NCBI RefSeq assembly: GCF_964204645.1
Contig: NW_027437436.1
Coordinates: 1-64,000, forward strand
Length of the DNA: 64,000 nt
Reading direction: 5' to 3'
Origin: Tubulanus polymorphus
Lineage: Eukaryota; Nemertea; Palaeonemertea; Tubulaniformes; Tubulanidae
Under the pieces are notes generated by a model. It searched no databases. It was not told where the DNA came from and was given only the letters and a program-made list of their open reading frames with translations. Position 1 is the stretch's first letter; every line of letters starts with the position of its first letter. The position numbers and the translations under genes were made by a program. Below are positions 27,771 to 59,774 of this stretch, in pieces.

Positions 27771-27800
27771 AAACTAAGAAAACAATAAATGTACACTCAC

Positions 27801-30508
27801 TCTTTTATTGAGTTCGTTAAGTTCTGATTCGATGCAGTTTTTCATCCTAGCTCGGTCGCTGGCTCGGCAACGGAAATACAGGTGAGATAGGTGCGGAAGG
27901 TTTTTGATTAATTCGACGATTGATTTGACAAATGAATCGATATCGTCCTGTGTATCAAACCTCTCCTTGTAAACGTTGAACTGTAACATACGAAGCGATG
28001 AGACGTTTTTAAGTAGTCGTAAGATGGTCCGATGCTGTTCGGTGCTTTTAAGTGAGCTTGTGATACCGATATTTTTCAGCTGATTTACCGCATCTGATGA
28101 TAGATACCGAACAAGTGCTTGGTAATCAGCTTCTAACTTTACATCTACTGATAAAACCGTCAGCTGCGGCAGGTGAGGCAGAATGCGGCTTTTTTCTAGA
28201 CTAGATCTGTGACAAGAAAGAAGCTTTAGTTCCGACATTGAAGCGATACAATCACTGATTTTTGTCGATTGATCTTTGGTTAGTTGAATCAGATCAAGAT
28301 GAATTGTTTCGATCTTTGAAGATCGTAAGGCACTGTTAAAATCTTCCAATTCTGTATCGGTCAAATCTTCATCTAATATTCTCCCATAAGGCTTGGATTT
28401 TTCTCCGCCTCGAAGATGAATTTCTTTCAAGCGCGGAATTATGTTTGTCAGCCCTCTATATATATTTTCACTGGGAGGCACGCGGATAAACAAATGTTTT
28501 AGGGATGGATTAGATTTGTGAATATTGCCAAAGATTTTTGCACTAGCCTCCGTTTTGATATAGAGAATTTCCTCTTTATATTGTGTGGATGGATCACGAG
28601 TGATCGACTGAACGTCATCTTCAGATTCAATCAATCGACTCGTTTTTATCCATTCACAATCGAGTTTCTTGTAACCGATACGGAATTCTCCTTTTAATAA
28701 GTCCACAAGCCAGTTCGTACTGTTGCTTTTCTGACACAATACCAAGTACGGATCACTGTCTATTGAACAACACCTCTCTCGTGCGATTATCATACCCTGA
28801 AGACGAGTGTTACTCGCTATGGCTGTTTCTAATGCGCAGTATTCGCCAGTGCCGGGTTTCAGTTCGTTACTCATATCTCTTAGATAAACTACCTCGATCG
28901 GGCATTGTTTGTGTTCGAGTATTTTTGCGAGTACTTTTATTTGCACGTCGCTAGTTATATTTACAATCAACATTTTTCCGGTGTAGTGAAATATTTCGCT
29001 AATGGCGTCATCCGGACAGTCGGCTTCATTCAGGTAGACTGATAACCGATCAGATAACCAATAGCTTTCAGATTTAAGTTCGATGTAGCGTTCATATTCG
29101 GGAAGGGCCGCTATCTGGACATTTTGTTGATCGTTTATTATGTCATCGAAACCGTCCTCGTCTATTGTGACTGCTTTTAAATTCTCATCAATTAAAGTTC
29201 TGAAAAGTTCACCGAAGGCGTTATCATGCTTGAGACGATACAGCAGCCCTACCATGAATCTCGGGTATAATTCACCATATTTTTTCAGTTCGTCCGGTAG
29301 TTGTTCAAACGCACATTTTTTCCAGGGTATTTCACCACTGTTGTTGAATTGTACAACCGAGTGAAACGCCGCCAGAAATTCGTGCACAGATTTGAGTATG
29401 AATCTTAGCTGGACGAAGCGGTCTGAGTTCATTCCCGGCGACACCTCTTCGCATGTCAAAGCCGTCATCTTCGATTCGTCGAGTTTGAGATGATTTTCAC
29501 TGAAGCTGTTTTGACCCTTGATGAGCGTCTCATACGCGACTTGACAGATTTCTTTAAGTGCTTCTGAATTTCCGATATCGCGGAAAAAACATTCCGACGA
29601 CAAGTCGAAGCCCTCACGTTTACTGATCAGAAAACACGTCAAATCGATGTAGATATCGGTGAGTTTTGATGGTATCGTAATTTCTTTCTTGTCCATATAC
29701 AGAGAACAAAACATATGTAGTATCAACGGGTTGAAGTAGGTACTTTGAAATAAAGGTGGCGCCGCGACTTTAAACATGTTGAATAGCTGATCTGCATCGC
29801 GCTCGGGGAATTTTCTCTTCATTATATCGAAGACTCCTTCCTCTCTGAAGCCGTATATCGATACAACGGTGAATTTGGAATCAGTGGCGATCATGCTTCC
29901 CCTGGACTCACGTGTTGTTATGACGATGTGCGCTTTCAGTAATTCATTGGTCGCGCGTACGATTTCTTTCTTCGCTTTATAGTTTTTCAACTCGTCGAAG
30001 CCGTCTAGCAAAAATATCGCTTTTTCTGCATTTTCCTGTACAAATCTCATAAAACCATCATACGGCGCGTCTTTTTTTACTACTTGACTTAAAAGATTAT
30101 CGTAAATGTACGTATAAATACACGCGTTATCAGCGGGCAGTTCATTTAACGGTATATAGAATAACATGGGAAATCTTTCTAGAAACGGTGATCGTTCCCA
30201 TGACAACACTTGATTTATCACCTGTGTAGTTTTACCAATACCAGGATCACCTACGAGGCATATATGCTTCTTTTCGGGCTGTTCATAAGTGAAAAGCTTC
30301 TCGAAATCATCGGGTAAAATCACTGACTGCTCCTCACTTTCTTCATTTCCCCTCGGGTTTCGTTTTTGCGGCCGAATTCTCGCGTGTTCTGTGGTGAAGA
30401 TTTCGTTGAAATTGACGAATTCATCGCTCCACCAAACCTCTTTATAATTTTTATCATCAATCAGTTGTTTATACGTTTCTTTCAGATACTTCTGAACTTG
30501 AGTAACAT
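27801..30508 (-). CDS. NACHT/LRR (NLR-type) main exon
   Basis: A single exon of about 902 codons. Acceptor CTTTTTTTACAG at 30,509 (phase 1), donor GTGAGT at 27,800 (phase 0). The open frame runs on to a stop at 27,774 if not spliced. The NTPase domain shows Walker A GDPGIGKTT (nt about 30,230-30,260), Walker B IFLLDGFDEL (about 30,000-30,030) and IVITTRES (about 29,900-29,925). The C-terminal third has leucine-rich repeats (for example LKLLSCHRSSLEKSRILPHL). NLRs are cytosolic immune receptors that oligomerise on ligand sensing. The part before the P-loop is acidic and carries no CARD or death fold I can recognise. No damage seen. Confidence 0.85.
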
Positions 30509-36714: not shown

Positions 36715-36720
36715 CAGTTC
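36715..36720. other. 6-bp target-site duplication, left copy
   Basis: CAGTTC directly precedes the left terminal repeat. The same six bases follow the right repeat at 53347-53352. This is the product of integrase-mediated insertion. Confidence 0.95.
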
Positions 36721-36810
36721 AGTAATTAGAAGATGGCGTTTTCATACCAGAGTACTAGAGTACTAGACACCACTCATCACCACAAGTAATTTTTTTTCCT
36801 AATAAATGGG
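36721..36810. repeat. Left terminal inverted repeat (90 bp)
   Basis: 88 of 90 bases match the inverted right repeat. It contains a doubled AGAGTACTAG word and ends with the start codon and first glycine codon of the first gene, so both inward-reading terminal genes begin inside the repeat with the same TAAATGGG context. Confidence 0.95.
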
Positions 36811-37609
36811 GGAGAATGAACACCAGCCAGAAAACAATAATGTTAATGAAAATCAATATCATTGTCCATATTGTAAAAAATACATTGATAAGTCTAATAA
36901 ATCTAAACATGAAAAATCTGCAAATCATATAAAAAATGTAATACATTTTGAAACCCCAGAAAATTCCAATGAAAGAAAGGAACGATTAGATGATATGAAT
37001 GTGGATGAAATAAAATGTGAAGTTTGTTATGAATTTATAGTAAAAAGGAATTATAAAAGACATATCAAATCACAAAAACACCATCAAAATTTGAGTAATG
37101 ATGTTTTAGGAAAAGATTATTTCGATGATAAACCTCAAAAAGTAAAAAAACCAACTTCAAAAACTAAATCCATTTCAAATAAACCTTACATGGAAAATGT
37201 TAGAAATTATATTGATTCACTAGAAATAAAAGATACAATTGAAATTTTAGAAACATTACATAGTAAAATTGGTTCTGCGGCTATTATATTTAGATTCTTT
37301 AAAGGAACAAGAATAGAAGATTATAGTAAATTTAATGAAATAATAGAAAAAATACTAGATTTGATAACAGATGTTGAATATCCAAAAATTAGTATCTCTG
37401 GGAAAGTAAGTTTTATAAAGTCAGAAGATAAAATGGATTATAATATTCAAACACTCTCTGAAGAAATAATTTCAAAAACGCAAATAAAAGAGAAGTTAGA
37501 AAAAATATTTAATGAATTTAAACGTCATATTGAAGAGAGATATTTTGAGGGTTCTGGTTTAACATTGAATGGAATTATATTTTTAGATTTAAATGTTTAT
37601 AATACTTAA
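36806..37609 (+). CDS. Zinc-finger protein / N-terminal part of PolB
   Basis: 267 residues starting MGENEHQPENNN inside the left terminal repeat. Two C2H2-type fingers: CPYCKKYIDKSNKSKHEKSA (residues about 22-42) and CEVCYEFIVKRNYKRHIKSQ (about 71-92). A conserved region follows (PYMENVRNYIDSL; ISISGKVSFIK; YFEGSGLTLNG). In many Polintons this part is continuous with the polymerase; here a TAA at 37,607 and then a frameshift separate them, so it is either a separate gene or the broken front end of PolB. A decayed relative lies at 6,160-6,835. Confidence 0.75.
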   Translation: MGENEHQPENNNVNENQYHCPYCKKYIDKSNKSKHEKSANHIKNVIHFETPENSNERKERLDDMNVDEIKCEVCYEFIVKRNYKRHIKSQKHHQNLSNDVLGKDYFDDKPQKVKKPTSKTKSISNKPYMENVRNYIDSLEIKDTIEILETLHSKIGSAAIIFRFFKGTRIEDYSKFNEIIEKILDLITDVEYPKISISGKVSFIKSEDKMDYNIQTLSEEIISKTQIKEKLEKIFNEFKRHIEERYFEGSGLTLNGIIFLDLNVYNT

Positions 37610-39933
37610 AGGAATAAAACATCAAAAAGTAAAACAACGTTTAAAATGACTCAAACTTTACAACAGAAAAGGATATTAAAGCATCAAGTTATATTAAATT
37701 ACCATTTACAACAAAAGCAGTAATAAATGTTCAAAATGAATATAATAAATGTTTTCTATGGTCAATTATTAGTTGCTTACACCCAACAGAAGATATTACG
37801 CATAGTTTTAGAATAACAAATTACCGGAAATATGAAACATTATATAAAATTGATCAATATCCAGTAACTATAAAAATGATACCCAAAATAGAAAAATTAA
37901 TAAGTTAAAAATAAATGTATTCGAATTAATGCAATTACCAAACACAAAAGGTGAAAATATTAAAGATTATACATTGGAAGCTTTATATTTAACAGAATAT
38001 TATGATGATGAAAATGCTATAGATTTGTTATATTACAAAAAAGATGAAAATGAACATTATATGTGGTTAAAACAAATTGATTTATTCTTTAGAACAGAAA
38101 GTGATTTTAACAGTCATAAGATTTATCTATGTAGAAAATGTTTATCTAAATTTAGAACTGAGAATGCGTTACTAAAATATAAAGAATTATGTGATAATAA
38201 AGATTTTTGCAAATTAATAATGCCAACAGAAAAAGATTATAAATTGAAATTTACTAATCATAAATTTAAAAATATTGTTCCATTTGTAATTTATGGGGAT
38301 TTTGAATCGTTGAATAAAGAATTAACTGATCAAGATAGAAAAGAAATATATAACAAAAAGCAATTATTAAAATCAATGGATAAAGGAAATGAATTAAATG
38401 AAGACACAAGACCACCAATTATAAATACAATTAAAAAAGTTCATCAAAGAGCTGCTGCTTATGGAATTTATATAAAATCAAAGTATCCTGAATTATATGA
38501 AAGTCAATATATTTCTTTTAGAGGTGAAGATGTAGTTAATGATTTTTGTAACAAAATGATTGAATTAGAAAGTGATTTTGCAAAATTATTAAACAAAAAT
38601 AAAAGAATAGTTATGACAAAAGAAGATGAAATTGATTTTAATTATGCAACTCATTGTTGTTATTGTGAAAAACGTTTTTATTCATTTGATAAAAAAGTTA
38701 GAGATCATAATCATTAAATTCAAAATATCGTGGGGCTGCTCATGAAGATTGTAATTTACAAGCTAAAAAAGTAAATTTCGTTCCAATATTATTTCATAAT
38801 TTATCCGGCTATGATACCCATCTATTTATAAAACAATTATCAAGGAAATTGGGCGCAATTAATCAAGAAATAGAAGAATATAATGCTATGAATGGTGTAA
38901 ATGTAAGAACATATGATTTTAAACTATTAGCTAAAACATCTGAAAATTATATTTCATTTCAATTTGGTTGCATTAGATTTTTAGATTCTTATAGATTTCT
39001 AGCAAGTTCATTAGATAATTTATTAAAAAGTTTAGTTGATAATGATTTTGTTATAACTCGATATCATTATCCAAATGAACAAGATTCTAAATTATTGAGA
39101 TATAAAGGTGCAATTCCTTATTCATTTTATAAAACACACAATGATTTTAATGTAACAGAATTATTAAAAGATCAATTTTATGATCAATTAAAAGAGGAGT
39201 ATGTGAAAGATGAAGTGTTTAACAGAACATTAAATATTTGGAACCATTTTAAGATGAAAAATCATTGCGAATTAGTTGATTTATATTTATATTTATAAAA
39301 TCAGATGTTATGATATTGGCTGACATATTTGAAAAATTTAGAGAAGTTAATTTGAATCATTTTAATGTTGATCCTTGTTATTGCTACTCTAGTCCTGGTT
39401 TAACCTGGCAATGTGGTTTAAAATACACAAATGTAGAATTAGATTTATTAAAAGAACCAGTTATGGTTTTATTATTTTAAAAATCAATTAGAGGTGGAAT
39501 TAGTGGTGTTATGGGAGATATATATTTTAAAGCAAATGATGAATATAAATTATAATATATTGACGCCAATAATTTATATGGTTGGGCAATGATGCAACCT
39601 CAACCATATAAAAGTTTTATATTAACAGAAGTTGAAAATGATGATAAAACTGATTGGGAAAGCGCAATTGCGAGTTTAAAAGATGAAGCACCAATTGGTT
39701 ATTTCTTTGTAGTTGATTTAGAATATCCTGAAAATATAAAGTTTAAAACAAGAAACTTACCTTATTGCCCAGAACATTTAACCGTAGATGATAGTTATTC
39801 AAGTGAATACCAGAAGAAAATAAAACCGAAAGATCATGTTTTTACAGAAAAATTAATACTTACTCAAATTAATAAATACAATTATATTGTTCATTATAGA
39901 ATGTTAAAATTCTATCTAAAACAAGGAATGAAA

Positions 39934-40545
39934 CTCTTTCCATGCGACTTCCCTAAAAACCAGATCCTGAGATTTTGCGAACTTTTTTCAAAAAATATTG
40001 GGTTCTCAAACTTCTAGACGGTCTAATACGCTTCCCTACACTAAAATATGATGATTCAGCTTGTTTCTGATGATCTAGCTATTCTGGGGTCGTTAGGGGC
40101 CCCCAAAATGTCAAAAAAAAAAATTTGACCTACTTTCGGGTCATTCGGGTACCCCTACCCCTAACTGCAGCTTCATATTCTCTCTATATATCTTCATTAT
40201 ATCCACTGCGTCATGTATAGACACCGTATACCAGCCGCTGTGTCTATTTATAAAGCTTTCAATTTTGCCCTACTTTGTTTACACAACTTGACCTCAATTC
40301 ACCGATAATGACTTTCGTGACCTATATAGATTTTATTCATACACCCGCCAGCGAACTCGAACAAAAACAAGTCCCTGGGGTTGCCAGGACTACCAGGCAT
40401 ACATACAAGCCGTATAAGCTTTATACATTGCCATTTAGACAGTAAGGGGATAAGTAGGTCAAACACCTGTGACGTGGCGCCACACCGCGCAAAAACAAAG
40501 CGTTCTGGAGACTGTGTCGTCCGGTCACAGTTAGCATGGAAAGAG
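39934..40545. mobile_element. 612-bp insertion with 12-bp inverted ends in PolB
   Basis: Ends CTCTTTCCATGC (39934-39945) and GCATGGAAAGAG (40534-40545) are perfect inverses. The interior is far more GC-rich than the Polinton and non-coding; it separates two blocks of PolB that are adjacent in the family. I cannot find a clear target duplication, so the superfamily is open (a MITE-like DNA transposon is likeliest). Confidence 0.7.
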
Positions 40546-40964
40546 AGAAAGTACATAGATATATTGAATTTAATCAATCGAAGTGGTTAGAAAAATATAT
40601 AGATTTCAATACTCAACAGAGAACCATATCAAAAACAGATTTTGAAAAAGATTTCTTCAAATTAATGAATAATAGTTTTTATGGTAAAACATGTGAAAAT
40701 ATTAGAAATAGAAATGATATTGAATTAGTAAATAATTCTGAAAGATTAAGACATTTACAATCAAGTCCTAGACATTTAGGAAATAAAAGATTTGAAGATT
40801 ATTTAACAGCAGTTAAATTAAAAAGAACGTCAATGAAATTTGATAAACCTATATTCATTGGTTCAACTGTTTTAGAAGTATCAAAATTATTAATGTATGA
40901 TTTTTATTATAATGTTTTACAACCTTTTTTTGGGGAAAAGCATATTGAAATATTATATTTTGAT

Positions 40965-42029
40965 TCTGTAACAGCTGACGCCCCAATATTATTAAAATGT
41001 AATAATAAAATATTGATAAGAAGAATTTCAGAAATAATTCCAAAACAAAATGAATGTTATATTTCATATGGTGAAAAAGAATTAATACAAATAAATGGAT
41101 TAATGGATGTTTGGACAAGAAATGGATGGAAAAAATTAAAGAATATTATTAGGCATAAAACAAATAAGAAAATCTATAGAGTTAGAACTAAATTAGGGTT
41201 TGTAGATGTTACAGAAGATCATAGTTTAATTAAACGAAATGGCGATGAAATAAAACCAACTGATATAAAAATTGGAGATGAATTATTACATAAAAGATTT
41301 TTCCAAAGAATGAATCATATGTCATTTGATGAAATTATTGATAATTTTTATAACATAGAACCCGAAACATTAGAAGAAAAAGAATATTTTTTTAAAGGAT
41401 TTTTCATGGGAGATGGTTCAGCAGGTGTGTATAATTATGTTAATCGCAATCAATATTGCTGGTATTTATGCAATCAAGATTTGAAATTATTAGCAAGAAT
41501 TAAGAAATTCTGTGAAGAAGTTTATTCACATAAAACATTTAGAATCGTGGATCATATGAAATCAACAGCAGTTTATAGAATACTTGTAAATAACCATAAA
41601 GATTTTGCTACAAAATATAATGACGAATTCTATATCCATACAATAGTTAAAAGTAATACTTCAACTAAAGAAAAGATAGTTCCAGATTATGTATTAAATG
41701 CAAAATATAAATTAAGAAAATGGCTCTTCATTGGATTCTATGCTGCAGATGGTTCAAAAAAATATACGAGATCTCCAGTAATAACATTTGCGCAAAAAGG
41801 AAAAGTTGCTATATCAGGATTGAATATATTATGCAGTTCATTAGGATTTAATATGAATATAGAATTAATTAAATCTAAACCAAATTGTTTTAATTTAAGG
41901 CATACAGAAAAAGATTTAACTGAAGAAGTTATAGATTTATTTGAAATATATAACCCATCAGATTATGTTTATGATTTATCAACTGAAGATGGCACATTCA
42001 ACTGTGGATTTCCATTAATAGCCAAAAAT
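40965..42029 (+). CDS. Intein with LAGLIDADG homing endonuclease (355 aa)
   Basis: Inteins excise themselves from a precursor protein and ligate the flanks. This one starts with Ser (SVTADAPILLK, block A) and has TEDH (block B, nt 41,211-41,222). Two LAGLIDADG-like motifs, GFFMGDG (about 41,400) and GFYAADG (about 41,735), both keep the catalytic Asp. VYDLSTEDGTFNCGF (block F) is followed by PLIAKN (block G), with Asn last and Thr as the next residue. The usual penultimate His is Lys. It splits the DNA polymerase motif C between its first Asp and the following Thr-Asp, the known pol-c insertion site of B-family polymerases. No stop or frameshift in 355 codons, unlike the rest of the gene. Confidence 0.9.
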
Positions 42030-42481
42030 ACGGACGCCTACATACTAAAAATCAAGACAAATGATATAACAAAAGACTTAAAAACATTAAAACATCATTT
42101 TGATTTTAGCAATTATCCCAAAGATCATGAACTATTTAGCAATGATAATAAAAAGATTCCTAGTAAGTTTAAAGATGAATTAGAGGGTGATGAAATGATT
42201 GAATTTGTTGGGATAAGAAGTAAAATGTATAGTTACAGAACAAAAGATCATGAAGCTAAAAAGTTAAAAGGAATAACAAAACATGTGGTTGATAAACATA
42301 TAGAATTTCAAGATTATATAAAGTGTTTATATAACTCAATTGTAATGAAACATAAAATGAATTGTTTAAGATCAGAAGATCACGAGATGTACATTAATGA
42401 AGTTGAAAAAACTAGTTTGAATCCATTTGATGATAAAAGGCATATTTTAGATGATGGTATAAAAACATTACCTTATGGCCA

Positions 42482-43810
42482 TTAAAACATAAAATCAATA
42501 TCATCATACTCGAAATCACTATTGGCTTCTTCATTTTCATTTAATTGTTCTTGTATAATTTGTTTCGGTTCTTCCATTTCATTTTTCTCATTTAAATATA
42601 GTTCTATCTTGCGCCACATTTCATCTCGCTCTCTTTGTTTCTTTTTGTTTGTTAATTCATCAAATGGAATTATAATATCTATGTTTAAATTATTTACAAT
42701 CTTATTTAAAAAGAATTCATAATTTATTGAATCTGTTATTCTATTTTCCAAATGATACATTAATATTTGTTTAAATATTTTTTTTTTATTTTCCATATCT
42801 TCTTCTGTTAATTTAGGTTTTTCATAATAATCGTTAAATAATGAATATAAATACATTTTCTTTTGTTTTGTGTTAAATGTTGACGGAATAATTGTTTTTA
42901 TAATATCTTTTTTAGTTATTTCACCATTTTTATTTTCTATTATTTTCATTTTTTCAAGCCATTGCATATATTCTGGTGTATGATCTTCTATAGAAAATAT
43001 TTTAAAAATTTCATCTAGATAATTTAATTTTGGCTCTATGAGAAAATTTCTAGTTTTTTCTTCACCCCATAAATTCTTTTGCCATCCACAATCAACACAA
43101 AATAACACAGTACCTTCTTGTCTTAAGGTCGCATAACTACATTGTGGACATTTTCGTTTATAATTTATTGGTAGTAGATCTTCATTAAGCTCTTGGTATT
43201 TTCTTACGTTTTCTTTATGTTTTATTGTTCTATTATGTAGATTTGAATTACTTGTTGTAATAATCAATTTACAATATTTACAATAATATGTTTTTCTTGT
43301 TAATTCATTATATTGTTTTTCTAACTTTTCAACTGTTTCTTTATTATCTGGTAACGTTTTCTCATATTTTATTTTTTCTAATAAATTATTTTTTCTTTCA
43401 TTGAATTCAGTTTCAAATTTATTAGAAATTTTATCTATATGTACTTTACGAAATTGATGATTCTCCCAATCTTCTATATTTTCAGGGCTATATTTTATTC
43501 GACAAGGCTCGCAGAAATGATCTTTCATATTATCCTTATCATAGAATAAGAAAGGTCTTTTCCAAATAATTTCAGGTTCAACTTCAACAGAATTACTATT
43601 ACTTTCATTACTATCAACATTAGCCGTTGCGCCATTAATTTTACACTTCTCTGAATGTTTTTTAACATAATTTCTTGAGAATAATTTATTACATTTTGGG
43701 CAGTTTAGTTTAGGGGGTTTATAATTTTCTTCATGTTTTTTCATATGTCGAGCCATATTACTTTTTCTTAGAAGTTCACCACAAATTTCGCATGGTATCT
43801 TCTCATCCAT
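42482..43810 (-). CDS. Multi-zinc-finger protein with zinc ribbon (442 aa)
   Basis: Starts MDEKIPCEICGELL after TTTTTCCTTAATAA. N-terminal C2H2-type pairs (CEICGELLRKSNMARHMKKH; CPKCNKLFSRNYVKKH), then CEPC...H...H, CKYC...H..H and a four-cysteine ribbon CPQCSYATLRQEGTVLFCVD (residues about 238-258) followed by an all-helical region. A ribbon plus helical tail recalls VLTF3-like late transcription factors of nucleo-cytoplasmic viruses and virophages. That link is a suggestion only. Ends in an acidic tail (NSDFEYDDIDFMF). Converges on PolB with a 4-bp overlap. Intact. Confidence 0.7.
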   Translation of the reverse strand: MDEKIPCEICGELLRKSNMARHMKKHEENYKPPKLNCPKCNKLFSRNYVKKHSEKCKINGATANVDSNESNSNSVEVEPEIIWKRPFLFYDKDNMKDHFCEPCRIKYSPENIEDWENHQFRKVHIDKISNKFETEFNERKNNLLEKIKYEKTLPDNKETVEKLEKQYNELTRKTYYCKYCKLIITTSNSNLHNRTIKHKENVRKYQELNEDLLPINYKRKCPQCSYATLRQEGTVLFCVDCGWQKNLWGEEKTRNFLIEPKLNYLDEIFKIFSIEDHTPEYMQWLEKMKIIENKNGEITKKDIIKTIIPSTFNTKQKKMYLYSLFNDYYEKPKLTEEDMENKKKIFKQILMYHLENRITDSINYEFFLNKIVNNLNIDIIIPFDELTNKKKQRERDEMWRKIELYLNEKNEMEEPKQIIQEQLNENEEANSDFEYDDIDFMF

Positions 43811-43878
43811 TTATTAAGGAAAAATTTTATTAAAATTAATTTTTAGTGATGAGCGGTAATTTTTTTATGTTATAAATA

Positions 43879-44632
43879 ATGGTAGAATTAAAAGAATACA
43901 GAATATTTGTTGATTCTAGAAAACTTACAAATTATAAATCACATAATTTAATAGTTCAATTAGATAGAGAATTTAAGAATTGTGTTGATTTAAAATTAGT
44001 AAATATAAGTTTATGTAACTCATTTTACAATATATCGGAAAAAAGTCTAGAACATTTAATTTTTTCAATCTTTTACAAAAAAAAGGAATAAATGGTTTTT
44101 TATATATTTAAAACCAGGATTATATAATTTAGATACATTAGCACAAGAAATTAATAGAAAAGCTCGAGCTAAATTAGGAAGTGATTCCGGATTTAGTATT
44201 AGAATTTTAAAAAGTGATAGTTCTAATAAAATAAAGATTAGGTTAGCTAATGACGAACAATTTAAATTTACAGTAAGAAAACCTTTAGGTAAACTGTTAG
44301 GAATTAACCCAGGTATTGTTACAGCATACGCAGAAGGTAAATCAAACTTAATACCTTTTACACATTTTTATATTTATTGCAATTTAATTGACCCAACAAA
44401 AACATTTGAAGCAACTAAAGATACAATTTGTAATTCTGGTTTATTAAATATTTTACCATTAAAAAATGTCAAACAATTTGGAACTCAAATAAATTATAAT
44501 TTAACTGAATGTGATTTCAAACCTTGTATTCCACATTTTAATAATTTTAGATTAGAAATAAGAAATCATAATGGTTATTTAATTGATTTGAATAACTTTC
44601 CTGTGATATATGAATTAGTTATAAGATGTTAA
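43879..44632 (+). pseudogene. Probable small jelly-roll virion protein, one frameshift
   Basis: Opens MVELKEYRIFVDSRKL; LVNISLCNSFYNIS and later LKPGLYNLDTLAQEINRKA follow the pattern of small jelly-roll (penton or minor capsid-like) virion proteins. The frame breaks in an A8 run at 44077-44084: ORF 1 stops at 44,091 and the remainder is open to TAA at 44,632. The start lies after TAATTTTTTTATGTTATAAATA. The identity as penton/minor capsid is inferred from position and pattern. Confidence 0.55.
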
Positions 44633-44654
44633 GAGTAATTTTTTCACTATATAA

Positions 44655-45014
44655 ATGAATATAACTGTTGGACCGAGTATATGTTTTGGATTTGATTTTA
44701 AACGTGAGAAAGAAATGAAATTTAACATTAATGATGTAATTACACATATCAAAAATATAGCATTTTCTAATGAAACAACATTTGAGTATGAAACAACAAT
44801 AGATAAAGAAACTTTAAATGTAGAAAAGATTACTAATTTAATTAGAGAATCTTTAAGATTTTATGAATTAGATGAAGATTTTATCATAGATGATATTAAA
44901 AACATATCAACCAAAATATATGATAATCATAAAAGTAGTAATGAAATAAATGTTGAATTAATCATCACTAAGATAACTAAATATTTTGAAGAAAGTAATT
45001 TTTTTGATAAATAA
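44655..45014 (+). CDS. Unassigned 119-residue protein
   Basis: Starts MNITVGPSICFGFDFKR after TAATTTTTTCACTATATAA. Helical, acidic; no membrane span. The stop codon touches the ATG of the next gene. I do not recognise the family; the position within the virion-gene block suggests a structural or assembly role. Intact. Confidence 0.6.
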   Translation: MNITVGPSICFGFDFKREKEMKFNINDVITHIKNIAFSNETTFEYETTIDKETLNVEKITNLIRESLRFYELDEDFIIDDIKNISTKIYDNHKSSNEINVELIITKITKYFEESNFFDK

Positions 45015-45239
45015 ATGAGTGATAATAAGTGGATAATAACTGGATTATATAATGGAGCATTACTATCAGTTGGAACTGTTGGTTATTCAATGGTATTAAA
45101 AAAAGTATTCAAAATGGGAAGTGTTAATCTTGATAGATTTGATATAAATGATATTTTAAAATTAACATTAGCAGTTACTTTATCTAATTTAACTATTGAT
45201 TATTTAGAAAAAACAAAAATATATATTCCTCCCACATAA
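45015..45239 (+). CDS. Small Polinton membrane protein (74 aa)
   Basis: Starts MSDNKWIITGLYNGALLSVG. A hydrophobic segment in the first third and a second amphipathic one (ILKLTLAVTLSNLTIDYL). Short proteins of this pattern occur repeatedly in animal Polintons in the same block. Function unknown; a role in the virion inner membrane or core is a guess. Starts directly after the previous stop within a TTTTTTTGATAAATAAATG context. Confidence 0.6.
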   Translation: MSDNKWIITGLYNGALLSVGTVGYSMVLKKVFKMGSVNLDRFDINDILKLTLAVTLSNLTIDYLEKTKIYIPPT

Positions 45240-45263
45240 ATGCATAATTTTTTTGCTAAATAA

Positions 45264-45686
45264 ATGGCTTCTGCAATTATAACTATTATAGGATCGGCAA
45301 TTGTTAACGCTTTAGCATTTACTGGTGGTGGTTATTTATTTAAGCATATTGATAAAAATAGTTCATTAGGAGAACAAAGAAGACATAACTTAGCATTAGA
45401 GAAATACAATAAAGCAGCAGAAGAATACAGAGAAAAACGACAAAACTATATGGATTATATTAACAAGGAATTATATGATCAGAAGATTTCACATAGAGAT
45501 TTTCAATCAGTTGATGATGCTATGAGTTTATATAACGCAGTAACCAATAAAGAAAAATTACATCTATACAAACCTAAATTATCAGATTATTATACCCCAA
45601 GTAAAGAACAACAGAAATATGAAATAATATGGATTTTAGGTGGAACTGTTATTGTTATATTTGTAGCATATAAATTTACTAATTAG
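45264..45686 (+). CDS. Polinton protein with two TM ends and coiled coil (140 aa)
   Basis: N-terminal hydrophobic stretch (IITIIGSAIVNALAFTGGGY), then a charged helix (RRHNLALEKYNKAAEEYREK), the conserved LSDYYTPSKEQQ and a C-terminal membrane span (IIWILGGTVIVIFVAYKF). The middle helix plus LSDFY.PS signature is a recurrent uncharacterised Polinton family. Preceded by the TAATTTTTTTGCTAAATAAATG-type start signal. Intact. Confidence 0.65.
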   Translation: MASAIITIIGSAIVNALAFTGGGYLFKHIDKNSSLGEQRRHNLALEKYNKAAEEYREKRQNYMDYINKELYDQKISHRDFQSVDDAMSLYNAVTNKEKLHLYKPKLSDYYTPSKEQQKYEIIWILGGTVIVIFVAYKFTN

Positions 45687-45706
45687 TAATTTTTTTTTCT
45701 AAATAA

Positions 45707-46126
45707 ATGGAAGATAAAGTTGATAGTATTGATATTATTCCTCATGATATAAATAAAACTAAATTGAAAATATATTTAGAAAAACAAATATTAGAATTTG
45801 AAAGTGACTTAAAGATAAAAAAGAAAAAATATTTAAAAAGTAAAATTATATATTATCTTATTATTAGTGGTTCGGTTACAATTAGTTCTGTAATAACATT
45901 TCTAGCAATATTCAGTCCATTAACACCTTTAGCTATATCAATTGGTGTATTAGGATTAAGTTCAAGTGTTTTAACTGGTATAAGTTCAAAATTAAATATA
46001 AAAAGTAATAAAGAAAAAATTAAAACTAATATAAAAGAAATTAATAAATTAAAGAATACACTAGATTATATAATAAGTTTAAATGGTCATATAACAGTTG
46101 AAGAACAAGATTTAGAAAAGAATTAA
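45707..46126 (+). CDS. Two-span membrane protein with flanking helices (139 aa)
   Basis: Starts MEDKVDSIDIIPHDINK. Helical segment, two adjacent hydrophobic spans (IIYYLIISGSVTISSVITFL and SPLTPLAISIGVLGL), then a Lys-rich helix. Start signal AATTTTTTTTTCTAAATAAATG-like. No family recognised; the layout of paired spans between coiled segments suggests an oligomeric membrane protein. Confidence 0.55.
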   Translation: MEDKVDSIDIIPHDINKTKLKIYLEKQILEFESDLKIKKKKYLKSKIIYYLIISGSVTISSVITFLAIFSPLTPLAISIGVLGLSSSVLTGISSKLNIKSNKEKIKTNIKEINKLKNTLDYIISLNGHITVEEQDLEKN

Positions 46127-46153
46127 TAAATTATTAATTTTTTAATTATGTAA

Positions 46154-47557
46154 ATGGTAGATAGTTTTCCAAAAGCTTTCCAATATGATAAATCAATTAA
46201 ATATAATATTCCAGCAATAGATTTTAATAAAGATATTACATATAGAAATGAAGTTTTAGATTCATTAACTAATTTAGAAATTTATGTTACTGAAACTAAT
46301 AATTTTAATGCAAAGATGGAAAATATATTTCATGTATATTTAATTAATTTTAAAAAATTGAAAGATGAAAAACAATGGTTATTAAAATCTAATATGAAGT
46401 ATTGGCAGAACCAATTAAATTTTGCTGTTTATTGTGCAACAACAGGATGTGGAATTAGTTGGAATGATCATTTGAATAATTCTAAATATAAATTAATTCA
46501 AAGTTTATTTAGATTTCATACATACTTTCAAATCAGAATAATATTAAATGAATTAGAGTGCGCTTTACCAGGATCTAGGTATTTTAAAGAATTAGATAAT
46601 AATATTAATTTATCAAAGTTTAATACAATTTGTAATGAATTTAATATAGATATAAATAATTCTGATTTTAGAACAAAAATTGGAACAATAAGATCACGTC
46701 CTTGCCCTAAAAAGATTGCAGAATATTGTGCACTTCCCATACCATCTAATAGTTTGTATAATATCTATAGTAATAAATTAGGTTATGGTAAAATAGAAAC
46801 TAAGGATTTAGAAACATTAAATTTCAATAAATTACCGACATTTTATGATAATTTAAAACAAGAAAACAATAATGGTTGGGTTTATTTCATTTTAGAAAAT
46901 AATGAAGGTTTTACAAAATCAGGTATACAAAGAATAAATCAATCTATTAGAACTTATTTGATATGTATTTTAGGTGCGCAAGTTGAAACAAGATCCCCAA
47001 TAATTGGAAATTTAAATACATCATTTGATACACAGAAACAATTCAAAGTATTATTTGAAGATTCTATTCATAATGATAAAAATAGATCGATTCCAGAAAA
47101 CATTGTAAGATATCAAAATTATTTAGATAAATCTCATGTAAGACTAAATTATTGTATAGGCCCTAATCTATTAATTATTTCTAATGATTTAGTACTAAAG
47201 ATGGGAAACATAATTGGTTACAATAATCTAATTAAAACTGCAACAATAAATAATTCATTTGGATTAAATGATATAAATAAAAAGATTATTACCGCTCCAA
47301 AATTAATGGAAGGTGAAAAAAATAAAAAACACATTCAATCTACAGAAACTAAAACTAAAAATATTAAATTGCATAATGATTCTAAAATAAAAGATTACAA
47401 TACATCAGAAAATATAAAAACTGATAATATTCAACATGATATAATTAAAACTGATAATGATAATAAATTCCATGAAAATACTAAATTAGCTTTAACTTGT
47501 ACAGGAATTGTTATAGGAGGAATATTATATTTTAAATTTTATTTTTTTATTATATAA
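46154..47557 (+). CDS. Conserved Polinton protein with CATTGCGIS motif (467 aa)
   Basis: Starts MVDSFPKAFQYDKSIKYNIP. Contains WQNQLNFAVYCATTGCGIS, then SLFRFHTYFQIRIILNELE, a signature I associate with a large uncharacterised protein of animal Polintons. The C-terminal 100 residues are Lys/Asn/Thr-rich and low-complexity, ending in a membrane span (LALTCTGIVIGGILYF). Probably virion-associated, by position. The TAA is directly followed by the next ATG. Intact. Confidence 0.65.
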   Translation: MVDSFPKAFQYDKSIKYNIPAIDFNKDITYRNEVLDSLTNLEIYVTETNNFNAKMENIFHVYLINFKKLKDEKQWLLKSNMKYWQNQLNFAVYCATTGCGISWNDHLNNSKYKLIQSLFRFHTYFQIRIILNELECALPGSRYFKELDNNINLSKFNTICNEFNIDINNSDFRTKIGTIRSRPCPKKIAEYCALPIPSNSLYNIYSNKLGYGKIETKDLETLNFNKLPTFYDNLKQENNNGWVYFILENNEGFTKSGIQRINQSIRTYLICILGAQVETRSPIIGNLNTSFDTQKQFKVLFEDSIHNDKNRSIPENIVRYQNYLDKSHVRLNYCIGPNLLIISNDLVLKMGNIIGYNNLIKTATINNSFGLNDINKKIITAPKLMEGEKNKKHIQSTETKTKNIKLHNDSKIKDYNTSENIKTDNIQHDIIKTDNDNKFHENTKLALTCTGIVIGGILYFKFYFFII

Positions 47558-48993
47558 ATGGATGTAGAAGGTGGAGAAGATATTGGAATGGATCCTTTAG
47601 ATGAACCTGGTATAACTGATGAACAACAACCTGATTTTAGTGAAACAAGTTTTAATGACGGTAATGCGTCAGGATATAATAATAATTTAAATATGCCTGA
47701 TTATATTAGAAATGCAATTAGAATCACAATTAAATCCTGAAAATTTAGACCCAGATTTAGTAAATCAAGATTTAGATAATTTAAACAAAATACCTAAATT
47801 AGAAGATTTAATTGAAAAATCTAAACTTAACATAAATGATGAAGACGTTGGACTTTTAGCAGATCAATTAAAATTTTTAGATAATGGTAAATGTTACTAT
47901 CGTTTGAAAGGTGATTATTATATTGATATCACTTATAAAAATAATAAAAATAAAATATGATCAGAATCAACTTTAGAAAAATTAAAACCAGATAGAATTA
48001 AAAGAATAAGTAATAGTAATGAAATAACTGATGTTACACAAAAAGAAAGAGATGATAATATAGACGTATTTAAACAAAAAATTAATGAATTATTTGAAAT
48101 AATCAAAAAGAAATCAGAAACAGAAACAACTTCTGAACAGAATATAACTTCCAAAACTAGTAAACTTAAATCAAATAAAGTTTCAATTGAAAAACTTTTA
48201 CCGAATGGATTAATTGATGCAACAGATCAAGAATTAGAAGATTTAGATATATTTTCTGATAAAGCAATTAGAGAGATTATTAGTATAAGAAATGAAGCTG
48301 ATAAAATTGCGCATGATAAAAGTATAAGAGATTTAAAAATTAGAACTTTAGAAAAAGAATTAACTGATAAAAATATAGAAATAGAACAATTAAAATTAGA
48401 TAGAGATAATAAAGTTATTGAAGAAATTGAATTTAAAAAAAAGAAATGCATATTTAGAAAAAGAAATTGATGATTTAGAATATAACATAGAATTACAAAA
48501 AGAAGAAATAAAATTATTATTAAAATCATATGATTATAATATTAATAGATTAAAAGTTATTTTCAAAGATTTATTGATAAAACCAAATTCTGAAATATCA
48601 TTGAAAGATAGAATAAAGTTATTATTTAAATTAGAAGGAATAACAATTCTTTCAATTATAACAGCTGTAACTATGTTATTTACAACAATAGGTTTAGCAA
48701 TATCAAATGCTTTAAAATCTACTCCTACTCCCAATAAACCGGATAAACCCCCGAATGATAATTCTATACAAGATAAAGTTAAAGATGGTTTAAAGAAATT
48801 AGCAAAATATTTATGGGAACTATCTAAAAAATCTGCTGCAGCTTTACCAGGAATTATTGCATCAATTGTTGGTTTTATATTGAAATCTGCTGGGAACATT
48901 CTTAACTTTGCTGCTGAATATATTATTTTATTTTTAATTACGGTTGTAAGTGCTATTATTTTTGGGTTAGTGAATATGATTAAAAATAAATAA
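47558..48993 (+). pseudogene. Long Polinton structural-type gene, three lesions
   Basis: The N-terminus is acidic (MDVEGGEDIGMDPLDEPG). A coiled coil spans about 48,230-48,530, followed by ITILSIITAVTMLFTTIGLA, a proline linker (STPTPNKPDKPPND) and KSAAALPGIIASIVGFILKS with a final membrane span. This last module is a recurrent Polinton family of unknown function. Lesions: frameshift near 47,710, in-frame TGA at 47958-47960 and a shift in an A8 run at 48435-48442. The 191-codon 3' part is still open. Confidence 0.65.
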
Positions 48994-49013
48994 TTAATTT
49001 TTTTGTTAAATAA

Positions 49014-50261
49014 ATGAGTGGGAGTTATATAAGTCCTTCTAAGATTTCTAGAATATCTAATGCTATTAAAGCAGAAAGATCACATCATATAATTACTCAT
49101 AATCCTTCAAATATTAATCCCGATGAAACTTTATATGTTAGAATTCCTCGATTAACACAAAATACTTTTTATGTTCCAAATAGTATTTATCTATCAGCTG
49201 ATATAAAAGTAACTGGTCATGATAATAATTATGTTGTTGATAATGTTGGGAGATATTTGATTAAAAAATTAACTATAAAGATTGGTCCAGAAACAGTTTT
49301 CTCATTAGATGATTATAATTTATTTATGCATTATGAAGATTTATAGTTAACTAAAGAAAATAGAAATAATATGATATTTCAGGGTATTCAATCGGAAAAC
49401 CATAATAAATTAAGATCAGGAGCTAATGACGCAATAGTAACTCGTGCCACAGATAATATGATTAAAAAGATTTATGGAAGCAAATATGAAATTCCATTAG
49501 ACTTTGAATTGATAAATAATAATGCACCTTTATATAAATATTTAATTCAAGAAGATATTATATTTGAGATAACATTTGCTCCTGTAAATGAAATTGTATT
49601 ATCTAGCTTTGTTAAAGATATGGGTTATAAATTATCAAATATATGTTTAGAATATGACACAGTTACTAATGAAAATATTGCTAGCACAATTCAAACTCAA
49701 TACAATCAAGGATTTTCATTATTATATGATTATATTGATAAATTAAAAACTGTAACTATTAATGCAAATGATGAAATAATTAATGAGAATATTAACTTCC
49801 CAAGAAGATCTATTAAAGGTATATTAATATTTTTTACCATTGCAACATATTCTAATGGCGCAATAAAGGTAGATAATTATTATAATCCTGAAATAACAAA
49901 AGTAGAAATAACTATCGAAGGAATAGCATATAAAATATTTTGTCAAGGAATGAGAATGATAGATCAATGGCCAGAAATTAGAAAACATTTTATGAATGAA
50001 AAAGTAAAATCATTTGAAAATTGTAACATTAATCAAATTGATTATTATACCGGCAATAAATATGCATTATGGTTAGATTTAAGAACAACAGAGGATAATT
50101 CATTACATGGTTCTGGGAAAAAACTACAGAACACTAAAGATGGAATACAATTATTCATGGCGAAGAAAACAGGAGACAAAAATTTCAAAATGCAGATTTA
50201 TATTATATCTGACGCACAATTAAATATTGTAAATTCACAATTAGATAGTATTCAATATTAG
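49014..50261 (+). pseudogene. MCP: Major capsid protein (double jelly-roll), one internal stop
   Basis: 415 codons in one frame, interrupted only by TAG at 49344-49346. Conserved features: NPSNINPDETLYVRIPRL near the N-terminus, LIKKLTIKIG, and near the C-terminus YTGNKYALWLDLRTTEDNSL and GSGKKLQNTKDGIQL. These match the hexon-like major capsid protein of Polintons, which forms trimeric capsomers of an icosahedral shell. Start signal TAATTTTTTTGTTAAATAAATG-like. The rest of the frame is clean, so the stop may be a recent mutation. Confidence 0.85.
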
Positions 50262-50291
50262 AAATATAAAGTTAAAATTAAGGATATATAA

Positions 50292-51419
50292 ATGGGTGGT
50301 AAAAAAACTCCTAATACTATAAAACAATATTTAAGAAATTTATATTACAACCCCGAGAGTTCGGTTGCTTATTCTTCTACCAAAAATATATGGCGTCAAG
50401 TAAAACAAGATAAATTAGATAAGACAATCCCACAAAATTTAGTTAAATATAAAGATATAAATGAATTTATGTTAGAACAACCAGCATACACAACACATAA
50501 AAAAATTGTTAGAAAATATAAAACTCGTTAAACTATGGTAAGTTATGTAGATCAACAGTGGCAAGGAGATTTAATTGATATGAAAAATGTTAAGAAAGAT
50601 AATGATGATTATTGGTGGTTATTGAATATAATTGATATTTTTAGTCGTTATGTATGGAGTTTCCCACTTTATAGAAAAGATGCTGTACAAACATCAAATG
50701 TTTTAAGAAAATTTCTTTCGGATGATAAACTAAAACCAGAAAAAATACAATTTGATGATGGAAAAGAGTTTGATAATTCACTTGTTCATGAACTCTTAGA
50801 TAATCATAATATTAAATATTTTTCAACAAAATCGGATAAAAAAGCAGCAGTTGTTGAACGATTTAATAGAACATTAAGAACAAGAATGTGGAAATATTTT
50901 ACAGCAAATAATACTTTTAAATGGATTGATGTTTTACCAAAATTGATAGAAGGATATAATAATTCCTATCATTCTTCTATTGGAATGAAACCTATTGATG
51001 CTAAAAAACCTGAAAATGCTGAAATTGTTTGGAATAATTTATATGGAGCATTTCTTGTAGATGATTTTGGTGAACCTAAATTTAAAGTTGGTCAAAATGT
51101 TAGAATTTCTAAGTATAAAAAGATATTTGACAAAGGATACGATCGAAATTTTACTAGGGAAATATATAAAATAAAAAAGGTAATAACAACAAAACCACAT
51201 GTCTATAAATTAGAAGATTTAGATGGTGAAGAAGTTGATGGCTACTTTTACGAAGAAGAATTAAGTTTAACTACTGAAAATCTACAACAAGAATATAAAA
51301 TTGAAAAAGTATTAAAAACAAAAACTATTAAAAGAAAAAAATATTCTTTAGTAAAATGGGTTGGATGGCCAGATAAATTCAATGAATGGATATTATCAAG
51401 TAAAATTAAAAATATATAA
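50292..51419 (+). pseudogene. INT: Polinton integrase with chromodomain, one internal stop
   Basis: Retrovirus-like DDE integrase: first Asp in QQWQGDLIDM, second in IQFDDGKEF, Glu in AAVVERFNRTL. Spacing between the last two is about 33 residues. The C-terminus is chromodomain-like (YKIEKVLKTKTIKRKKYSLV, then WVGWPDKFNEW), which may steer insertion to certain chromatin. The frame is broken only by TAA at 50529-50531, between the N-terminal helical part and the catalytic core. The homologue at 61,903 is open there. The stop is followed four codons later by an ATG, so a core-only product is conceivable. Confidence 0.9.
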
Positions 51420-52028
51420 ATGAATAAGGAATTATTTATATTTGAGCCTCATAATATGTTAATTTCTGGTGTAACAAATTGTGGAAAAACTTATTTTATA
51501 TTAAATTTATTAGGAACTGTTTATAAAAACTATTTTGATAATATAGTATTATTTTGTCCAACATATGAATTTAATCAAACTTATGATAGTAATATTACTA
51601 GAAATAATAAATTTATTATATTAGATCCTAAAACAGTAAAAGAAAATTTAGATAATTGTATTAAAATAGCAATAGATATTTATAAAGGATCAAATACATT
51701 ATTCATTATAGATGATTGTGCAAATTTACATGATTCAAAAATTAGAGAAAGTGAGTTATGTTATTTAGCTTTTTCTGGTAGACATTTTGGGATAACAACA
51801 TGGGTTTTAAATCAAAAATATAATTCAATTGTTAAAGACTTTAGAGAAAACATTAGATTTCTAGTTTTATTCTACAATAAAGATAGAAAATCGATGAAAA
51901 ATGCACTTGAGGAAAATGATATTATTCCACATGATTTACATAATGAATATATGGATAAGTTGAAAAATATTAAAAGATCAAAATTACTATTTAGATTACA
52001 ACACCCATTTAAATATGAATTTATTTAA
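51420..52028 (+). CDS. ATP: A32-like DNA-packaging ATPase (202 aa)
   Basis: FtsK/HerA-type genome-packaging ATPase of Polintons and related viruses. Walker A GVTNCGKT (residues about 17-24), Walker B NTLFIIDDC (about 93-101) and the arginine-rich DFRENIRFLVLFYNKDRKSM later. Its ATG touches the integrase stop. Intact. It is almost identical in its second half to the ATPase at 62,984, although flanking genes of the two elements have diverged more. Confidence 0.92.
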   Translation: MNKELFIFEPHNMLISGVTNCGKTYFILNLLGTVYKNYFDNIVLFCPTYEFNQTYDSNITRNNKFIILDPKTVKENLDNCIKIAIDIYKGSNTLFIIDDCANLHDSKIRESELCYLAFSGRHFGITTWVLNQKYNSIVKDFRENIRFLVLFYNKDRKSMKNALEENDIIPHDLHNEYMDKLKNIKRSKLLFRLQHPFKYEFI

Positions 52029-52220
52029 ATTCAACTAGCTTGTTAATCTAGTTTAATTCTAGTTACATTCTAGTTGAATTCTAGTTGTTAGTAGTTGGAA
52101 CAAAAATCAACTAGATTTAACAAGAAATAAACAAAAACAACAATATTTCAACTAGCTTGTTAATCTAGTTGAATTCTAGTTACATTCTAGTTGAATTCTA
52201 GTTGCAACATCACAACTAAT
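52029..52220. repeat. Duplicated CTAGTTGAATTCTAG-rich block
   Basis: About 117-bp unit in two copies (from about 52,031 and 52,148), with TTCAACTAGCTTGTTAATCT and several ATTCTAGTT words that pair with each other. Similar TCTAG/ACAAGAAAT words occur in the 700-bp repeats of the decayed element (for example 6,968-7,040), so this non-coding module is shared between elements. Confidence 0.75.
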
Positions 52221-52235
52221 TTTTTTGTTATATAA

Positions 52236-52774
52236 ATGGGAGGTGAAAAGAAAATAAAATCTAAAAATGGTGATGTTCCAATTGAAAAAACTTTAGATGA
52301 TTTAGGAATAACAGAAAACAACTAATTCCAGATGATGGTGCTTTAAATAATGTTACAACAAATGATAATTATGAATATTATCTTTATTCTAAACATCAAT
52401 TAGAAATATTAATAGCATCTGGAAAATGTAAAAATTTTGTCGGTAAAAATTTAACTTATAATGAATTAGATACAATGAAATCAGATGAAATTATTAGATT
52501 ATTTAAGATTTATGAAACCGCGAGAACAGCTAGAATTAATGACGCGATATCAGAAAATGTAGTAAAAGGTTATAGTAAATTATGTAATTATATACTACCA
52601 ATTGAAGATGAAAATAGATTATATTCCGATTTAAAAAATGACTATTTAGTTATGACTGAATTAAATAAATGGATTGGATATTTATCATTTCAATGAGGTG
52701 GATTTATGACATTATTATCAACTGGGGTTATAACATTTTCAAATATTGAAAGTAAAAATATTTCTTTGGATTAA
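52236..52774 (+). pseudogene. Conserved Polinton accessory/virion protein, broken
   Basis: Homologue of the intact 200-residue gene at 60,945. It starts MGGEKKIKSKNGDVPIEKTL after CTAATTTTTTTGTTATATAA. A frameshift near 52,320 and an in-frame TGA at 52694-52696 break it. The conserved part reads IRLFKIYETARTARINDAIS and LKNDYLVMTELNKW. In the second element this gene lies before the integrase, here after the ATPase, so it has moved. Confidence 0.75.
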
Positions 52775-52934
52775 TATTTTAGAAAAAAAGCAAAAAAATA
52801 ATTTTTTTAATTAATTGAATATTAATTGAATATCTCACTACTTTTGTCTATCTATGCGGAGCAATTAAATTGTCCAGATAAGTCATTTCGGATTCTAGAT
52901 ATTCATTATTTTTATTAATTTATCTTTTTTAAAT

Positions 52935-53261
52935 TTAATCAACAATTTCTAAATCATGATGGCCATCTTCATTTTTTCCATGATAGATTATTTTAAATCC
53001 TTCTAAATCTTTTAATTCCTCTGTACTCAATGAAAACCATTTATCAGGTAAAAATACTTTAAATTCTCGTGATGTACTAACATTACAGTAGCTTAAATTA
53101 GCTGATACTTTCTCTCCATATTTAGTTTTTATCTTTTCTAATTTCAATATTTTATGTTCAATTTCTTTTGTAACATCAATTAACTTTTTTATTTCAAATT
53201 GTTTTTTTGCTGGTTTTATTCTGTTATTTATTGTTGCTAAGAATGCTTTTCTATCTCCCAT
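52935..53261 (-). CDS. Terminal small Polinton protein (108 aa)
   Basis: Starts MGDRKAFLATINNRIK inside the right terminal repeat and reads inward. Charged helix, then REFKVFLPDKWFSLSTEEL and a His/acidic end (GHHDLEIVD). Relatives: the pseudogene at 5,656 and the fragment at 11,214. Its position beside a replication end and its size would suit a DNA-end or single-strand binding protein, but that is inference. Intact. Confidence 0.65.
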   Translation of the reverse strand: MGDRKAFLATINNRIKPAKKQFEIKKLIDVTKEIEHKILKLEKIKTKYGEKVSANLSYCNVSTSREFKVFLPDKWFSLSTEELKDLEGFKIIYHGKNEDGHHDLEIVD

Positions 53262-53346
53262 TTATAAGGAAAACAAATTACTTGTGGTGATGAGTGGTGT
53301 CTAGTACTCTAGTACTCTGGTATGAAAACGCCATCTTCTAATTACT
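53257..53346. repeat. Right terminal inverted repeat (90 bp)
   Basis: Inverse of 36721-36810 with two substitutions and no indel. It holds the ATG of the terminal minus-strand gene (53,259-53,261). Confidence 0.95.
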
Positions 53347-53352
53347 CAGTTC
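53347..53352. other. 6-bp target-site duplication, right copy
   Basis: CAGTTC, identical to 36715-36720. Confidence 0.95.
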
Positions 53353-58354: not shown

Positions 58355-58890
58355 GCCTATATACATTCAATGTATAGAGCTATAGAATAAATCTATAAAT
58401 TCACAGCTGTTACAGTTGTTACTATAACGACGAGACATTATGACTCATAATATTACAAACTGTGCTGGAACTCTGAATAGAGATGACACATCATAATCAG
58501 AAACGTGTAGAATATTCTAGAAAGGCGCGCCGGAACTAGATGATGTGGTATAATCAACGACGTGTCATTCTAGAAATCGCCCCGGAAATGGACATACGCT
58601 GTAATATTGTGCTCAGGATATTCTATCTTTCGAAACGAAATTAGGAGTTTATAGTTTACAATTATAAATCTAAATGTAAGTACTGTTTGTTGTAGTTATT
58701 AAGGCTATTAAATATGAAACCTTTAAGTGCTTTTGACAACTACAACTTTATACAGTTAATTCTATTTTACGTTAGATAGATAATAACTTGAACTATAATA
58801 AGTTATAATAATTAGAAACGATAGACTTGAAAATATTTATATCATTTAATATCGCGGTTCCTGTTCTACCGCTGATATCTTTTAGTTGAA
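58355..58890. other. Non-coding spacer with diverged ~60-bp repeats
   Basis: Two related stretches around CGTGT...ATTCTAGAAA...GCCCGGAA (about 58,500 and 58,560) and AT-rich DNA. No ORF; probably the upstream region of the gene at 58,895. Confidence 0.4.
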
Positions 58891-58894
58891 TAAA

Positions 58895-59644: not shown

Positions 59645-59774
59645 ATCAAATTATGTACAACGACTGAACAACTTGTATAATGTATTGTGTAAATCTGTTT
59701 GGTGAATTTTTATGTTCGGTCGTTTCTATTTCTAGAATGAATATATAATTATGATTAGCGCATGCGCATTGATC

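Follow-up and report, generated by a model that had tools for sequence, protein, structure and literature searches.

The window analysed here, the first 64,000 nucleotides (64 kb) of contig C19 (NW_027437436.1) of a Tubulanus polymorphus genome, carries a Polinton/Maverick element whose DNA polymerase gene is interrupted, inside catalytic motif C, by a 355-codon segment with the make-up of an intein and a homing endonuclease. The genome examined totals 267.8 Mb and has 77 contigs, of which at least 12 measure 11.5–32 Mb. Wnt is specific to animals, and a Wnt search of this genome gave 39 matches (exons), as against none in 14 control genomes of unspecified kind; the host genome is therefore that of an animal. 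An earlier note, made from the letters of the window, had proposed an intein at this place in a Polinton polymerase. The features that bear on that proposal are as follows (AF2, AlphaFold2).

38918..42482, +, Polinton DNA polymerase gene, at least this extent (tblastn pieces of proteins P0025, P0022, P0002, P0004 and P0006)
40596..40964, +, N-extein piece used in the analysis, ending within motif C (...YFD)
40965..42029, +, predicted intein, Ser1 to Asn355, 355 codons (Pfam and NCBIfam profiles, PDB sequence match, AF2 model, fold search)
40965..41309, +, N-terminal Hint (splicing) part with block B Thr83 and His86 (invariant columns, AF2 strands; boundary approximate)
41310..41921, +, LAGLIDADG homing-endonuclease part (profile, alignment, AF2, I-DmoI fold matches; boundary approximate)
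41412–41414 and 41748–41750, +, codons of Asp150 and Asp262 in the endonuclease part, putatively catalytic by analogy
41922..42029, +, C-terminal Hint part with block F Asp337 and terminal Asn355 (alignment columns, AF2 model)
42030..42482, +, C-extein, starting with the +1 Thr of motif C, TDAY (tblastn matches, copy alignment)

The segment is open throughout, within an open reading frame (ORF) spanning 40536–42482, and its edges read ...YFD/SVTADAP on the left and VYDLSTEDGTFNCGFPLIAKN/TDAY on the right. The splicing blocks and the two LAGLIDADG aspartates that the earlier note had named are all in place (Ser1, Thr83 and His86 in VTEDH, Asp150, Asp262, Asn355 and the +1 Thr), together with Asp337; Asp150 and Asp262 fall in two LAGLIDADG-type motifs. 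Pfam LAGLIDADG_3 (26.5 bits, cut-off 22.5) and NCBIfam intein_Nterm (29.4 bits, cut-off 24.5) recognise the segment, while Pfam Intein_splicing stops just short of its threshold. Among PDB sequences it is closest to PI-PkoII, an archaeal DNA-polymerase intein with a homing endonuclease. The AF2 model, built from a 20-row alignment, has a pLDDT (predicted local distance difference test) of 86.1 and a pTM (predicted template modelling score) of 0.86. Used as a query against PDB folds, it retrieves the TliVMA intein, PI-PkoII, PhoVMA and PI-PfuI on top and I-DmoI lower; against viral structures, phycodnavirus and pandoravirus polymerases are among the top matches. The solved structures of TliVMA, PI-PkoII and PI-PfuI share the two-domain Hint and LAGLIDADG fold with the model, whereas sequence identity in the fold alignments is 12–18%. 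Profiles, AF2 prediction and fold matches thus all point to the Hint fold of class 1 inteins. Judged by sequence and model, 40965–42029 is a canonical Ser1...Asn355/+1Thr (class 1) intein with a two-motif LAGLIDADG endonuclease, and the boundaries first proposed for it are right to the base.

The insertion point, YFD/TD, lies between the Asp and the Thr of the YxDTDx core of motif C. Giant-virus (Mimivirus) and archaeal B-family polymerases (PolBs) carry their pol-c inteins at the identical point, Asp/Thr of motif C, the Mimivirus junction being given as YGD/TDS in PMC549080. By its site the window intein is therefore assigned to the pol-c allele type, as had been suggested. The left boundary is D/S wherever present in the window and 14 other Polinton proteins of the set, and the right boundary is N/T wherever present, P0001 excepted. 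Homologues without the insert align across the site: motif C is uninterrupted (YFDTDSY, for example) in 113 of 120 N-extein homologues, the best 120 of 1,865. None of these 120 has an intein by pattern, and the other seven gave no pattern match. Among the homologues listed, the closest intein-free protein, P0062, is 93% identical across 123 N-extein columns. The alignment of P0062 with an empty genomic copy, locus L130, spans 386 residues and shows no net gap, which indicates a precise, in-frame insertion.

Filled and empty copies in the genome

The window copy is one of many. A search of the genome with the intein gave 624 candidates, of which 114 were scored; this is a lower bound, and scoring the best candidates favours intact copies. 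The scored matches are 85–92% identical to the window intein (the window itself aside) and are spread across the 12 largest contigs seen. By hand count, 79 are free of internal stops, and 11 sit in a single open frame 1,686–1,690 codons long. Exact patterns found at least 268 left intein junctions (reversed-pattern control, 0), 93 right junctions with a penultimate Lys (control, 6) and 234 empty motif-C sites (control, 0), so that the insert-free relatives looked for in the same genome do exist. These patterns count junctions rather than whole inteins, mix the two polymerase families A and B described below, and miss other codons, AGY serine included.

Sequences were fetched for three sets: 60 of the 114 places matched by the intein, 20 of the 150 N-extein places for which no intein was listed, and 20 empty sites out of 234. 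Intein sequence was present in all 80 intein and N-extein places, in pieces or incomplete in 18 of the 20 N-extein places, and intein homology was found in none of the 20 empty sites. Nineteen of these 20 belong to a distinct polymerase family, B, whose N-extein pieces are 59–90% (mostly 73–79%) and C-extein pieces 58–83% (mostly 75–80%) identical to the window. L130 (G000:C2:12002236-12002256) is a family-A copy without the intein, 97% identical to the window on both sides; it either was empty ancestrally or has lost the intein exactly. Conversely, 8 of the 93 right junctions have a B-type flank; all eight were fetched, and all hold a second intein lineage before B-type C-exteins. This lineage is about 72% alike to the window intein (ten aligned pieces 59–83%, seven of them 70–75%, last third only). 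Both polymerase families are therefore polymorphic for the intein in one genome, in which hundreds of Polinton polymerase copies have an intein and hundreds have none.

The 81 filled loci (the window, 60 and 20) provide 48 unbroken inteins, 70 unbroken N-exteins and 60 unbroken C-exteins, all three being unbroken in 39; substitution ratios (dN/dS, nonsynonymous over synonymous) were computed on unbroken copies, broken pieces having been dropped. Ser1, Thr83, His86 and Asn355 are each kept in 48 of 48 inteins, Asp150, Asp262 and Asp337 each in 47, and the +1 Thr in 60 of 60 C-exteins. Over the 39 complete copies, mean dN/dS is 0.036 for the N-extein, 0.214 for the intein and 0.109 for the C-extein; over the 48 inteins, it is 0.213 for the whole, 0.182 for the Hint part and 0.229 for the endonuclease. 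A ratio near 0.2 together with the kept residues indicates that both Hint and endonuclease were under purifying selection while copies spread; sampling of unbroken copies favours intactness, yet is not enough on its own to produce such a ratio.

The penultimate residue is less uniform: Lys in 34 of the 48 inteins, Val in 8 and Phe in 6. Among relatives, P0002–P0004, P0006 and P0008 have His, and P0005, P0011 and others have Lys. The Lys that the earlier note singled out as unusual is thus present without being peculiar to the window copy. The junction codons are hypervariable in family A, with ACT/ACG/ACC, GAC/GAT and GCC/AGT/GCG at C-extein positions +1 to +3, and intein codons 352–354 likewise vary strikingly across family-A copies; C-extein codons 4–11 are nearly fixed, each agreeing in 58 or 59 of 60 copies. 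All 60 family-A C-exteins use AGT or GCN for the third codon; the 11 family-B empties sampled all use TCT there, although the pattern that selected them could not have matched AGT.

Relatives and descent

The window intein is 31–40% identical to 13 inteins of PF00136-bearing polymerases (alignment A1) and so belongs to the same sequence family. A 46-row intein tree was made from the window and 45 of 60 proteins, the other 15 having been dropped when their boundaries were not found by pattern. In it the 15 Polinton inteins form one clade (support 100/100), and 30 of the 31 non-Polinton inteins are in PF00136-bearing proteins, the last (P0030) standing with topoisomerase-type domains. What sets the Polinton inteins apart from giant-virus and archaeal pol-c inteins is this clade of their own, with Lys, Val or Phe as penultimate residue in the present genome, and a host enzyme, the Polinton polymerase, that an animal genome carries in hundreds of integrated copies.

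Several relatives deserve mention in their own right. P0030 and P0183 carry related inteins in proteins whose Pfam domains are of topoisomerase/gyrase type; the same intein family therefore also occurs outside polymerases. A Lokiarchaeota polymerase from a metagenome-assembled genome (L045, 3685–7677) has a pol-c intein 35% identical to that of the window over nearly its full length. Viral contigs searched with P0003 and P0062 gave no relative. A search with alignment A2 gave 41 viral loci. Two of the three earlier viral loci, L001 and L003, were inspected by eye, and in both the polymerase contains a related intein.

The host polymerases do not form one clade. They were placed in an N-extein tree of 40 rows (84 of 124 rows left out, all of them empties that matched a retained row at 75% identity or more; P0001, P0003, P0009 and P0010, 4 of the 14 other Polinton intein proteins, had too little N-extein to enter). 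There the 11 intein-bearing hosts are scattered over three positions, and the approximately unbiased test rejects their union in one clade (p 1.1e-6). A single entry into Polintons followed by losses would fit these trees, as would transfer by homing. Between families A and B the intein lineages are about 72% alike and the exteins 76–80%, a roughly equal divergence that argues for long co-residence. The intein family of these animal Polintons is thus old, present in many copies and under selection. The finding also suggests that the pol-c allele moved, in one direction or the other, between a giant-virus-type PolB and a Polinton polymerase, which are very different types.

Probable splicing, possible homing and the alternatives

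I consider it very probable that the segment splices as an intein and that selection has kept it in the DNA polymerase of animal Polintons; splicing, cutting and homing are what I infer. Translation would yield a single polymerase precursor about 1,690 residues long. In it the Hint fold would activate Ser1, the N-extein would be passed to the +1 Thr, Asn355 would cyclise, and the product would be a polymerase with an uninterrupted YFDTD motif C. Since the insert splits motif C, the polymerase should fail unless the intein splices, and the intein should thereby be protected from inexact deletion. The endonuclease part would cut motif C in other Polinton copies that lack the insert, repair templated by a filled copy would spread the intein, and Polinton transposition would also multiply it.

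A number of observations pull the other way. The penultimate His typical of class 1 inteins is found in none of the 48 unbroken copies, a residue that is not strictly required of inteins. Intein_splicing matches the window intein with E 2.1e-8 but at 34.5 bits, below the 35.8 cut-off; TN replaces TD in 2 of 60 C-exteins; the Polinton relative P0001 has Ala at +1 and should therefore not splice; and stops lie within 35 of the 114 scored intein matches. The window's own polymerase gene is broken, so that no working protein is expected from this copy, the open intein frame notwithstanding. On mobility, mean dS (synonymous divergence) is 0.14 for the C-extein, lower than the 0.205 of the intein, a result that simple homing would not predict, and the block linkage of the 39 complete copies contains no intein-specific shuffling once trimmed, as detailed below. 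Finally, according to PMC11071308, active protein-primed polymerases (pPolBs) without the first Asp of motif C exist; a split motif C need therefore not be absolutely inactivating.

The main alternative concerns the homing step only: the intein would splice while its endonuclease no longer drives, riding on Polinton transposition, with empty copies being losses or a separate lineage. I regard this as possible though somewhat doubtful. It draws on the distribution of the empties, 19 of 20 being family B whereas the other 80 loci, all filled, have family-A exteins where present (a split favoured by the choice of loci), on the parallel divergence of inteins and exteins, as in vertical descent, and on the lack of robust intein-specific recombination. 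Against it stand the endonuclease dN/dS of 0.229, the retention of Asp150 in 47 of 48 copies and likewise of Asp262, presence and absence inside both families (L130; L160–L167), and host exteins that do not form one clade.

As to the homing step of the preferred reading, mean dS is higher in the N-extein (0.41) than in the intein, which would follow from a spread of the intein through polymerase lineages older than itself. An apparent linkage signal for homing, between distances over N-extein 1–62 and C-extein 1–50 (r 0.54, reached in 0 of 500 permutations), was driven by outliers such as L108 and L117 and discarded: r fell to 0.06 once 9 of the 39 copies were dropped, and homing between copies is not demonstrated by it. 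L108, in which odd exteins surround an ordinary intein, is one suggestive case. Homing is plausible in that the presence/absence pattern and the non-monophyly of the hosts fit it, and I lean towards its having occurred, in the past or at present. More tentatively, the system might amount to a gene drive within one animal germline genome, in which the endonuclease of filled Polinton copies cuts the hundreds of empty sister copies that share their nucleus and a protein parasite homes through a multicopy DNA-virus-like family, with repeated gain and loss and fast change of the target codons at the junction.

A second alternative is an in-frame nuclease insertion without protein splicing. Jeong 2023 is reported to describe HNH and VSR nuclease inserts in Polinton polymerases of nematode, oomycete and mollusc origin. 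The window intein resembles these in being a selfish nuclease inside a Polinton polymerase and differs from them, as reported, in having LAGLIDADG motifs and a complete splicing domain at motif C. That pPolBs do accept such inserts lends this alternative some precedent: homing-endonuclease insertions in Polinton pPolBs have been noted as probable intein invasions, with reference to Jeong 2023 (PMC11071308). It is nevertheless highly improbable here, given the complete Hint domain, its invariant splicing residues and its dN/dS of 0.182, and given that a split motif C should impair an unspliced enzyme, yet the exteins evolve at 0.036 and 0.109. An assembly chimera or giant-virus contamination, suggested by the nearest non-Polinton inteins being in PF00136-type polymerases, some of them of giant viruses, is excluded in my view by copy number (268 left junctions, copies across the 12 largest contigs seen), besides the Polinton-type exteins within terminal repeats and a target-site duplication and the Wnt genes of the genome.

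The claim that such an element was undescribed holds in part. A splicing intein in an animal Polinton was not found described in the open-licence literature, judged mostly on titles and the openings of abstracts; insertions of homing endonucleases into pPolBs had, as said, already been noted as probable intein invasions. The window intein is like Prp8, VMA1 and other eukaryotic nuclear inteins in being encoded in nuclear DNA. These are known from fungi, choanoflagellates, amoebozoa and apusozoa (PMC5784728), and a published survey has animal genomes without inteins, against which stands one animal genome whose Polinton polymerase genes show at least 268 intein junctions. For Polinton-like viruses of protists, one section of PMC12220804 describes GIY-YIG and HNH genes and no LAGLIDADG intein. 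Because filled and empty alleles occur together by the hundred in a single nucleus, existing genome data can be used to test homing, loss and target-site escape directly.

The Polinton element and its surroundings

The remaining features of the element are these (TIRs, terminal inverted repeats; TSD, target-site duplication).

36721..53346, +, Polinton/Maverick element, 16,626 bp (TIRs, TSD)
39934..40545, no strand, 612-bp insertion in the polymerase gene (12-bp terminal inverted repeats CTCTTTCCATGC/GCATGGAAAGAG; relatives' homology contiguous on both sides)
50535..51419, +, Polinton integrase (Pfam rve; chromodomain match below cut-off)
51420..52028, +, A32-like packaging ATPase (Pfam)

The TIRs (36721–36813 and 53254–53346) are 93 nt long and 97% identical, the ends begin AGTAATTAG, and the 6-bp TSD CAGTTC lies at 36715–36720 and 53347–53352. 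With its TIRs, TSD, rve integrase and A32-like ATPase the element is a real Polinton, as the earlier note had it. That note also placed it in the intron of a host gene, a nesting not borne out: no gene spanning the Polinton was seen in the window, without a systematic test.

The polymerase gene changes frame near 38.71 kb (just upstream of 38918), 39.29 kb and 39.47–39.55 kb, and contains the 612-bp insertion, probably a small non-autonomous DNA transposon; it is by these lesions that the copy is broken. Seven polymerase queries matched the window only within 38.9–42.5 kb. No Pfam polymerase match was obtained for the window pieces, nor for P0002, P0005, P0006, P0062 and P0063; a homologue, P0124, carries PF03175, and the protein-primed type is assigned to the window polymerase from its homologues rather than from a Pfam match of its own. 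As capsid or protease candidates, the ORFs at 46154 and 49371 have no Pfam match and that at 48418 has a weak one only; ORF 49371–50258 is presumably major capsid protein-like, by eye.

Outside the element, a single-ORF gene with a NACHT domain (NLR-like; E 7.6e-17) lies at 27777–30323 on the minus strand, its protein having no match in PDB. A second, partial Polinton occupies 58886–63598, with an integrase 65% and an ATPase 82% identical to those of the first.
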